Below, one piece after another: positions 14,870 to 17,292 of a stretch of 17,966 nt of DNA. Position numbers and translations under genes: made by a program. Source of the DNA: Actinomycetes bacterium (GTDB taxonomy: Bacteria; Actinomycetota; Acidimicrobiia; Acidimicrobiales; Acidimicrobiaceae). The DNA is taken from NCBI GenBank assembly GCA_021844725.1, contig JAKBSX010000007.1, positions 1 through 17,966 on the forward strand, given 5' to 3'. The notes under the pieces are model-generated. The model worked only from the letters and a program-made list of their open reading frames with translations, was not told the origin of the DNA and searched no databases. Every line of letters starts with the position of its first letter. Within the stretch, counting starts at the first letter, position 1.

Positions 14870-16069
14870 CTACGAAACGCAGCCGCCGCTTGAAACACCT
14901 TTAGTAGAGTGCTCATTGGCTAAGATTTTTTGATCAACCGCCGGGCTTGCAAGGGCAAATCCGATATTTGGATTGGTGGTGGATCGTGAAAATACCACCC
15001 CTATGACTTGTCCCTTCATATTGAGCAATGGTCCACCGGAGTTGCCGGGACGAACAATAGCTTCAATCTCGTATACCAGTCTGGTAGTCAGCCCTTGGCC
15101 GTAAATATCTCTTCCAGTTGCGTTGAAGGTAGCCATGACCCCGGCCGGTCCATAAGTCAGCGGACCGCCACCTGGATACCCAAGCACTACAGCTTCTGTG
15201 TCCCTGTATACCGTCTGAGTGGATACAGTCAATGGAGGCTCAGTCAAACCCTGAGTTTTCAGCAGTGCAAGGTCAAGTCTGGGATTGAAATAGATTACCG
15301 TTGCGTGGTGCTGACCACGGCTGTCGATAATGTATGGATTAGCTATCCCAGCCACTACGTGGGCATTTGTCACCACAATATTGGGTGCAACAACAAATCC
15401 AGAACCTTCCTGAATTTGGCCACAGCCAACCCCTTCAATCTTTAGCGTTGAGACTTCGGCGGTCTTAACCACCTGATTCACTTGAGCGGTGTCTGGTAGC
15501 CCTACTGGCCCGGCCAGCTGAGGTGGCAATGACGCAAACACAGAGGGAAAACCTTGTGAGTTAACAAATGCTTGTACTCTGGAAAATACTGAAGGGGCCG
15601 CCGGCAAAACGTTATCCAAAGCCCGTACGATCCTCGAACTTGCCACTTGAGAGGATAACCAGGTAAATGGGGAATTGACAGCTATACCGGCCAAAATCCA
15701 CACTCCCAGCAGCGTAGCCACCACTGCAATTGCGGCACCCAGTGCAGAGTCCACCGCTGCCAACTTGACTTTCCTAATGGTGCGCCATGCCTTTACGCCT
15801 ATTCGCCGACCAGCTCCGGCAAGAAGTGTTGCCGTACCGAACAAAATGACCAGCGAGACAATGGTACGCCACAGTGGAGTATGGATTGGCCCAACTATAA
15901 CCGGCGCGACAATTGCACCAAGAAATAGCCCAATCCAGAATCCTGCATAGGAGCCTAGCTGGACCGATGCTCCCAATTGAATCCCACGAATTGCAGAGAT
16001 TGCAACGGCGATCAAAAGAATAACATCTAGAATGTCAAAACCTATTGCGGCGGTTAAATGAAATGGCAC
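14870..16069 (-). CDS. marP: MarP-like membrane serine protease (CvpA + trypsin-like domains)
   Basis: The 399-residue protein begins with four hydrophobic helices (about 12-30, 40-60, 66-86 and 105-130), the CvpA/colicin V production-like domain. A periplasmic trypsin-like protease follows. The catalytic triad is H237 (VVTNAHVV), D266 (PRLDLALL) and S344 (RPGNSGGPL). C216 and C397 flank the protease. In Mycobacterium tuberculosis MarP (Rv3671c), as I recall, the triad is at 235/264/343 and the regulatory disulfide joins 214 and 395, so the match is nearly residue for residue. MarP is needed for acid and oxidative stress tolerance there. The start is GTG with a weak GAAGAG ribosome site. It lies downstream of the peroxiredoxin, separated by 208 nt with two palindromes, and directly upstream of the YgjP-like gene. 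Confidence 0.92.
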   Translation of the reverse strand: MPFHLTAAIGFDILDVILLIAVAISAIRGIQLGASVQLGSYAGFWIGLFLGAIVAPVIVGPIHTPLWRTIVSLVILFGTATLLAGAGRRIGVKAWRTIRKVKLAAVDSALGAAIAVVATLLGVWILAGIAVNSPFTWLSSQVASSRIVRALDNVLPAAPSVFSRVQAFVNSQGFPSVFASLPPQLAGPVGLPDTAQVNQVVKTAEVSTLKIEGVGCGQIQEGSGFVVAPNIVVTNAHVVAGIANPYIIDSRGQHHATVIYFNPRLDLALLKTQGLTEPPLTVSTQTVYRDTEAVVLGYPGGGPLTYGPAGVMATFNATGRDIYGQGLTTRLVYEIEAIVRPGNSGGPLLNMKGQVIGVVFSRSTTNPNIGFALASPAVDQKILANEHSTKGVSSGGCVS

Positions 16070-16277: not shown

Positions 16278-16742
16278 CTACTTAGCAGTGAGTCTCTTTA
16301 AATCCTCTAAGACTTGCTGAGCATGACTTTGAGGATCAGATACCTCATATGAAACTTGTATTATTCCATCAGGATCTATCAGGTAGCTAATACGCTTTGG
16401 CAAACTTTCATACTGATCACCCGGTTCGCGCATCACTTGATAAAGCGGTCCAACTTTCTTTTCTGAATCACTTAGCAGCTGATACTTGAACCCCTGCTCC
16501 TGGGCAAATTTTCTATTCTCCTCAACCGAATCGAAAGATGCACCCAGAATTACCGTCCCTAGCTCCTGTAAATCTTGGGATCTGTCACGCAGACCCTGAC
16601 CTTCGATGGTTCAGCCAGGAGTCCCAGCTTTGGGATACCACCAAAGCAGAACCCACTTGCCTTTAAATGACGATAGCGACACCAAATTGCCAGATTGATC
16701 CGGCAAGGTGAAGTCTGGAGCCGCTGTAGTTGACTCTAGCAT
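16278..16742 (-). CDS. Bcp/PrxQ-type peroxiredoxin with in-frame TGA, probable selenocysteine
   Basis: The frame from ATG 16742 to TAG 16278 is 154 codons with one internal TGA at codon 44 (16613-16611). It reads MLESTTAAPDFTLPDQSGN, then WYPKAGTPG-TGA-TIEGQGLRDRS, then VILGASFDSVEENRKFAQEQ, KYQLLSDSEKKVG and KRISYLIDPDGIIQ. This is the AhpC/TSA thioredoxin fold of Bcp/PrxQ proteins, which reduce peroxides. The TGA replaces precisely the peroxidatic Cys of the family motif TPGCT, so it is most simply selenocysteine. The protein has no cysteine anywhere and no resolving Cys, so it would be a one-selenocysteine enzyme needing an external reductant. Length and both flanks are intact, which argues against decay. 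GAAAGG lies 8 nt before the ATG. It is divergent from the CopD-like gene. The main alternative is a nonsense mutation or base error. Confidence 0.85.
16577..16596 (-). promoter_or_regulatory. Candidate bacterial SECIS stem-loop
   Basis: In the mRNA, GGGUCUG pairs with CAGAUCCC through GGG/CCC and UCUG/CAGA, with a single bulged U on the 3' arm. The apical loop is CGUGA. The loop begins 21 nt after the UGA, inside the range given for bacterial SECIS elements (about 16-37 nt), and has a G at its second position as the consensus asks. UC/GA pairs at the base can extend the stem past an A/AA internal loop. The structure lies in the coding sequence, as bacterial SECIS elements do. Not tested by folding software. 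Confidence 0.7.
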
Positions 16743-16887
16743 GTTCGATACCTTTCACCTAGTTTTACTATGCAAGCTTATCTGATTATTTGCCTTACTT
16801 CAGAAATACTCCTATCTAATACCAGATACCCGCATCAGACGAAATGCCCCGGTTGGCGACTATCTTCTATTCCGGAGGTTTTATAAA

Positions 16888-17292
16888 GTGCTTGCGTCTG
16901 CAATAAATGGAATCCGTCTCAGCATTCACGTTTTAGCCGCAACGGTATGGGTTGGCGGCCAGATTACACTTGGGGGTCTGGTACCAAGCATCAGGAAGGT
17001 ATCGCCGGAGGCGATATCTGCTGTAACCAAGGCTTTTGGACGGCTTTCGTGGCCCGCTTTTTGGATACTGGTTTTGACTGGATTCTGGAATATCGGTGCA
17101 GTCAATATCAATTCCCAGTCAACAGCATGGCAGATAGTTCTATATGTAAAGATATTTATCGTGATTGTCTCCGGTGGATCAGCGTATCTGCATACAAAGT
17201 CAAAGACAACCAGGTCCCTGGCGATTTGGGGCGCAATTTCCGGCCTTTCAGCGGTTTCAGCACTTGTTATGGGCGTTTTCCTCGCCAACTAA
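16888..17292 (+). CDS. Small four-helix membrane protein, CopD-like
   Basis: The 134-residue protein has four predicted membrane helices (about 9-33, 51-73, 80-101 and 110-132) with short loops and a final LAN. The first helix, IHVLAATVWVGGQITLGGLVP, carries the His and WVGG pattern seen in CopD-domain and related heme/copper membrane proteins. A Lys in helix 3 (YVKIFIVIV) and a His at 102 also fit. CopD-type proteins are linked to copper handling or quinone/heme-bearing membrane domains, but no metal role can be shown here. The start is GTG with GGAGG 9 nt upstream. The gene is divergent from the peroxiredoxin across 145 nt. Confidence 0.75.
   Translation: MLASAINGIRLSIHVLAATVWVGGQITLGGLVPSIRKVSPEAISAVTKAFGRLSWPAFWILVLTGFWNIGAVNINSQSTAWQIVLYVKIFIVIVSGGSAYLHTKSKTTRSLAIWGAISGLSAVSALVMGVFLAN

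Follow-up and report, generated by a model that had tools for sequence, protein, structure and literature searches.

A TGA codon at the peroxidatic position of a Bcp/PrxQ-type peroxiredoxin gene from an Acidimicrobiia-like actinobacterium is very probably read as selenocysteine

An earlier inspection of the DNA stretch analysed here (17,966 nucleotides in its full length, called the window below), made from the letters alone and referred to as the sequence-only reading, had proposed that a 154-codon frame containing one TGA, at codon 44, encodes a selenocysteine (Sec)-containing peroxiredoxin. The coordinates and the motif given for that frame proved exact. The genes and features of the locus are the following:

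16742-16278, minus strand: gene for a predicted Sec-containing Bcp/PrxQ-type peroxiredoxin, with ATG start, 154 codons and TAG stop
16613-16611, minus strand: the in-frame TGA (codon 44), which is probably decoded as selenocysteine and occupies the peroxidatic position in PxxxTxxU
16578-16596, minus strand: SECIS-like hairpin with a 7-bp stem (GGGUCUG/CAGAUCC) and a 5-nt loop, CGUGA (16585-16589)
16751-16760, minus strand: purine-rich stretch AGGTGAAAGG, similar to a Shine-Dalgarno sequence and lying 8 nt ahead of the ATG, identified by eye
14870-16069, minus strand: MarP-family membrane serine protease gene, downstream of the peroxiredoxin gene (NCBIfam NF033740, 342.5 bits, cut-off 250)
16888-17292, plus strand: gene for a small CopD-like membrane protein, divergent (weak matches below family cut-offs)

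TGA44, which in the translation lies in the context ...YPKAGTPG-U-TIEGQGLRD..., is the sole internal stop of the frame, and there is no further disruption. The read-through protein matched the Pfam family AhpC-TSA (PF00578) with an E-value of 3.3e-33 over residues 7-130 and thus on both sides of the TGA, as the sequence-only reading had noted for family similarity at large. We are highly confident that the gene, which belongs to an Acidimicrobiia-like actinobacterium, encodes a functional selenoprotein, in which UGA44 would be decoded as Sec to give a peroxidase of the Bcp/PrxQ fold, and the evidence is set out below.

To place the TGA in its family, orthologues were sought in 61 genomes (the window's own genome and 60 relatives). 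Close orthologues, at 48% identity or more, were found in 10 of these genomes, one in each: the own genome, six of the nine genomes of the same genus (62-64% identity) and three genomes of the same order (48-55%). All 10 contained exactly one in-frame stop, always TGA and always at the same residue, and the scattered other disruptions in close relatives that would speak for decay were absent. Residues P37, T41, the Sec position and R117 were invariant across the 10 orthologues, and the remaining matches listed in the same genomes lay below E 1e-24 and were nearly all free of stops. A close match was absent from three congeners in the 61-genome search; in two of them (G001 and G005) the contig breaks off beside marP, at the end where one would expect the peroxiredoxin gene, and in the third (G008), which is 69% complete, marP was not found either. 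Since the locus is broken or missing in all three, absence of the gene is not shown in any congener. A wider scan of the genome_contigs collection, with patterns drawn from TGA genes, gave at least 571 confirmed stretches, and among the best 80 of these (the titled loci) codon 44 was TGA in 57 and TGC or TGT in 23, counts that do not represent a frequency. The titles of the 57 TGA loci among these best 80 named Actinomycetota in 31 cases, 20 of them Acidimicrobi-, with Alphaproteobacteria, Gammaproteobacteria, Gemmatimonadetes, Marinimicrobia, SAR324 and more among the others. Within the matched stretches of the titled loci, the only extra stop was a TGA near the end of one locus (L164). The aligned position is occupied by Cys or TGA in homologues, both forms being present in the titled loci and Cys also in database homologues, which agrees with the proposal that the TGA stands in place of the catalytic Cys.

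A bacterial SECIS element has been described, in the passages of PMC13188914 available to us, as a hairpin with a loop of 3-9 nt and a stem of 4-16 bp, located 16-37 nt from the UGA, with a G within the first two loop bases and a minimum free energy (MFE) of -7.5 or lower. The hairpin in the window spans 18 to 36 nt from the U of the UGA, its loop begins 21 nt after the UGA with G and U as loop bases 2 and 3, and its core folds with -8.2 kcal/mol, and it thus fits the published rule (7 bp, CGUGA, 21 nt, -8.2 kcal/mol). To assess whether such a hairpin accompanies the TGA in general, we compared 64 TGA genes (57 titled loci, six further relatives and the window) with 23 Cys genes, which together make 87 rows; the loci L021, L024 and L026 had been dropped beforehand as duplicates, since their contigs agree in length and position with those of L118, L123 and L136. 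Stems of 6 bp or more with the same loop start were present in 58 of the 64 TGA genes and in none of the 23 Cys genes, the loops of these 58 measuring 5 nt (13 genes), 6 nt (4) or 7 nt (41); the remaining six TGA genes had no 6-bp stem at this place. When such stems were accepted anywhere within the published rule, the counts were 58/64 and 1/23, and with the additional demand of an MFE of -7.5 or lower they were 55/64 and 1/23. The energy threshold alone discriminated poorly, being reached by 61/64 TGA genes, yet also by 12/23 Cys genes. The Arg52 codon, which forms the loop, was CGT in 61 of 64 TGA genes as against 6 of 23 Cys genes.

The stems were also compared with those of random synonymous re-codings drawn with local codon use. 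The mean stem length was 6.3 bp in TGA genes against 2.8 bp in their re-codings, whereas the corresponding values for Cys genes were 2.1 and 2.2. Taken individually, 34 of 64 TGA genes but none of the 23 Cys genes reached p<=0.05, the window having a p of 0.04; its hairpin is only moderately unusual when 48 nt are compared with shuffles (z -1.36). The type of base pair also varied, through changes in both arms of the stem, in the 13 genes with a 5-nt loop: one pair was C-G in 11, G-C in one and U-A in one (the window), and another was G-U in 10 and C-G in three. As the sets with 5-nt and 7-nt loops were picked for having a stem, the share of paired positions is no evidence and only the change of pair type counts. 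A search against Rfam gave nothing above cut-off at the SECIS position. Overall, as judged from these comparisons of coding sequences, the putative SECIS element is kept behind the TGA beyond what the protein requires. Against this background the idea that a pseudogene or a sequencing error has turned a Cys codon, TGC or TGT, into TGA, which draws on the single base that separates these codons and on the fragmented draft assembly of 90 contigs, has next to no chance of being right, given the same TGA in six congeners at 62-64% identity, its presence in 57 of the 80 best titled loci, which come from several phyla, and the hairpin retained behind it.

The sequence-only reading had also held that the organism decodes Sec. 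The window's own genome (G000) is a draft of 2.65 Mb in 90 contigs, 94.9% complete, and contains two genes of the Sec pathway above cut-off:

C52:19515-19606: tRNA-Sec with anticodon TCA (69.2 bits, cut-off 47)
C56:7180-8103 (the same as L095 1501-2424): selD (377 bits, cut-off 125)

This selD has an in-frame TGA of its own, in the motif SHGAGU-ACK, at what we take to be the catalytic position of SelD. An in-frame TGA is likewise found in the selD of eight of the nine congeners, and the SelD of two further genomes (G048 and G055) has none. A second tRNA-Sec match in the own genome (C81, 48 bits, above cut-off) is a tRNA-Gly according to ARAGORN. Searches with profiles and with the SelB of a congener did not find selA or selB in the draft assembly of the own genome, nor in G002 and G003, which both carry the TGA peroxiredoxin gene. 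Among the nine congeners, selA was found in seven (partial in G006) and selB in seven, the latter with a congener's own SelB as query; at E <= 1e-75 the selB search had found nine of 61 genomes and no congener. The SelB-wing_2 domain (PF09106) had no match in the own genome, a weak test because the congener SelB that was scanned has SelB-wing_3 (PF09107) instead. The best match to the selB model there (207.5 bits, cut-off 242) was a 401-residue frame that by eye is EF-Tu. Of the sel genes, tRNA-Sec(TCA) and selD are in the genome. The failure to find selA and selB touches the refuting condition set in the sequence-only reading, but that condition asks for a complete genome, and the assembly is an incomplete draft.

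Across the 61 genomes, tRNA-Sec was present in all 10 that have the TGA gene and in 14 of the 51 others (Fisher p 2e-5, uncorrected for kinship), and selD above cut-off was present in nine of the 10, the exception being G009, where it was not found. Within family f1, tRNA-Sec occurred in nine of the 10 genomes of the genus (G008 lacking it), and in G011; the 26 other genomes gave none. In G011, which has tRNA-Sec, selA, selB and a TGA-containing selD, the search yielded no TGA peroxiredoxin. Together, tRNA-Sec, the TGA-containing selD, the SECIS-like hairpin and the conserved TGA support the view that the organism decodes Sec. It would be extremely improbable for TGA to be a general sense codon in this organism, for example for Trp or Gly. 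Trp in four and Gly in one of the 120 homologues listed at position 44 would fit such a code, but Cys stands there in 112 of them, the purD, clpB and dnaK genes of the same window stop at TGA with ordinary lengths, and the UGA-reading tRNA that was found is tRNA-Sec. The Trp forms (P0051, P0054, P0065 and P0076, none of which has a Cys) and the Gly form (P0060) have the appearance of TGA genes that gene callers translated with genetic codes 4 and 25.

The missing selA and selB could also mean that Sec synthesis has been lost, leaving the peroxiredoxin gene as a relic or as one truncated at codon 43. The arrangement of the sel genes in congener G009, in which selA and selB were confirmed by profile and the other genes named by eye, bears on this point. 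There tRNA-Sec is followed by genes for a small metal-binding-like protein, a sigma factor and a small protein, by nadE and a GGDEF/EAL protein gene, and then by glnA, a second glnA-like gene, a response regulator gene, mrp, a NUDIX gene, selA and selB. Contig C52 of the own genome matches the first part of this order and ends 316 nt beyond its nadE match; the contigs of G003 and G002 end 484 nt beyond the nadE match and 254 nt beyond the GGDEF/EAL match, respectively. An mrp orthologue was not found in any of these three genomes, which gave only matches of 39-40% identity, and neither was glnA in a search run without a positive control. Because mrp and glnA, located in G009 on the stretch from tRNA-Sec to selA, were not found either and the contigs end ahead of them, we read the absence of selA and selB as one unassembled stretch, and an assembly gap is the simplest reading. 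With tRNA-Sec and a TGA-containing selD retained and the peroxiredoxin gene otherwise undisrupted, loss of Sec synthesis is very unlikely, and a functional selenoprotein gene remains the reading that we adopt.

The order marP, peroxiredoxin, CopD-like gene and gltB-like gene was common to the window and to all six congener loci that have the gene (L018-L023; L118 is L021 again). In the other loci searched, with flanks of up to 3 kb, no marP, CopD-like or gltB-like gene was found next to the peroxiredoxin gene. G010, a genome of the same family in which tRNA-Sec is lacking, has marP, copD and gltB in the same arrangement, and its gap between marP and copD gave no peroxiredoxin match at E 1e-4. 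With this single outgroup, the peroxiredoxin gene seems to have been gained or lost between marP and copD near the root of the genus.

We next consider the function of the protein. An AlphaFold2 model, with Cys in place of Sec, had a mean pLDDT of 98.1 and places residue 44 near the start of a helix (residues 42-53). The nearest solved folds were those of Bcp/PrxQ, and the one-Cys AhpE of Mycobacterium tuberculosis appeared further down the list. Against NCBIfam the protein scored 116.1 bits for the thioredoxin-dependent thiol peroxidase Bcp (PRK09437, cut-off 140) and 62.5 bits for PrxU (NF040737, cut-off 270), both below cut-off. The protein shares fold and active-site motif with the two-Cys Bcp/PrxQ peroxiredoxins; however, at position +5, where these have their resolving Cys, it has Gln49, and it contains no Cys at all. 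The +5 Cys was present in all 20 Cys paralogues fetched from genomes of the same family and order and in 20 of the 23 Cys loci, whereas it was absent from 62 of the 64 TGA genes, 37 of which, the window's included, encode no Cys whatsoever. That loss of the +5 Cys is tied to Sec is weakened by the 82 of 120 listed homologues in which a Cys at position 44 likewise goes without the +5 Cys. Of these 82 forms, 58 carry a Cys at residue 63, and 16 are without a second Cys. Cys63 (in query numbering) lies where a predicted strand begins and may be an alternative resolving Cys; it also occurs in 10 of the 64 Sec forms.

That the gene encodes a real selenoprotein whose main job is not peroxide removal, such as a thiol-disulphide oxidoreductase or a redox sensor, would be in keeping with the equivalog cut-offs of PRK09437 and PrxU not being reached. 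We regard it as unlikely, since the invariant P37, T41, Sec position and R117 of the 10 orthologues and the match of the fold to Bcp/PrxQ and AhpE peroxidases argue against it, and a protein without Cys cannot form a CxxU or UxxC pair. As a peroxidase, the protein would work as follows. SelB bound to the hairpin just downstream would bring Sec-tRNA(UCA) to UGA44, where we infer that Sec is inserted, and translation would run on to the TAG to give a 154-residue peroxidase of the Bcp/PrxQ fold whose peroxidatic residue carries a selenol. The selenolate would then reduce peroxide and be turned into selenenic acid. The absence of Cys from the protein makes an internal Sec-Cys bridge impossible, and oxidised Sec would hence have to be reduced from outside the chain, that is, by an outside thiol (a low-molecular-weight thiol or a redoxin) and not by an internal resolving Cys. 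The gene sequences thus suggest a one-Sec cycle with an outside thiol, which in Actinomycetota would perhaps be the mycothiol or mycoredoxin system.

Among known systems, the AhpE of M. tuberculosis (PDB 1xxu, 4x0x and 5id2) has a similar fold (TM 0.87-0.88), is called one-Cys in the titles of its PDB entries, and the title of 5id2 names mycothiol exposure; in contrast to the protein described here it uses Cys, and it is more distant by profile search, where the best chain reached 1.8e-29 and 1xxu 5.7e-16. PrxU of Eubacterium (Peptoclostridium) acidaminophilum likewise has Sec at the peroxidatic position, but the window protein reaches only 62.5 bits of the 270 set for that family, and PrxU has a resolving Cys where the window protein has none. 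The closest likeness is to the Sec peroxiredoxin family (COG1225/PF00578), and that Sec-containing peroxiredoxins were already described, as the sequence-only reading had stated, is well founded, the family being established in the accessible parts of PMC1088965, PMC2398784, PMC9312934 and PMC13188914. In excerpts of the respective papers, Sec peroxiredoxins with TxxU number 43 genes in Sargasso Sea data (PMC1088965), 253 genes are given for GOS data (PMC2398784) and 91, in 78 organisms, for a survey of sequenced bacteria (PMC5029168); COG1225/Bcp is named for the Sec peroxiredoxin (PMC9312934), and a 2026 review gives PxxxTxxU as its motif (PMC13188914). No mention of peroxiredoxin was found in PMC12013277. 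The window protein shares with this family, as portrayed in those excerpts, the domain, TxxU/PxxxTxxU, a SECIS behind the UGA and widespread Cys homologues, and we found nothing that sets it outside the family. Neither Acidimicrobiia nor a resolving Cys of Sec peroxiredoxins is mentioned in the accessible parts of PMC1088965, PMC2398784, PMC9312934 and PMC13188914, and we found no paper on selenoproteins in Acidimicrobiia in the open-licence literature, which yielded a sponge-microbiome paper that names selenocysteine once and a paper on Acidihalobacter, although the metagenomic peroxiredoxin sets may include such sequences. The novelty is small, as far as those parts of the cited papers go, and lies in the taxonomic group and in the cysteine-free form, on which they do not remark. 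With these results the known Sec peroxiredoxins gain a group centred on Acidimicrobiia.

To follow the exchange of Sec and Cys we built two trees, in both of which Sec was entered as Cys. In a tree of 107 rows, in which the Cys forms were mostly distant ones, 63 of the 64 Sec genes fell together and one (L191) stood apart. In a quick tree of 143 rows, to which 70 of the 82 close Cys forms were added and from which most distant ones were omitted, there were 16 changes of state, at least four of them forced by starred branches, and it follows from these changes that exchanges between Sec and Cys have happened repeatedly, the direction of any one of them being what we infer from the tree. The Cys form P0002 (61% identity, no second Cys) falls inside the window's genus-level clade in the 143-row tree and, on this placement, is probably a natural Sec-to-Cys change. 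We put forward, as a tentative proposal that may well fail, that the window protein belongs to a Cys-free, one-Sec branch of Bcp/PrxQ in which the selenol would carry out the entire reaction, with outside-thiol recycling, closer in its mode of action to selenium glutathione peroxidases than to two-Cys Bcp, and marked by repeated replacement of Sec and Cys. The family offers a natural Sec/Cys series at one active site, with 37 of 64 Sec forms free of Cys, and hence a clean system in which to ask what advantage Sec brings when a resolving Cys is missing.

Three of the 120 database entries listed (P0005, 97 aa; P0082 and P0092, 108 aa) start after the Sec codon, and one such entry is 91% identical to the window protein over 62% of it. 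These three look like truncated calls of a selenoprotein of the window type, and such post-Sec entries show gene callers cutting Sec peroxiredoxin genes.
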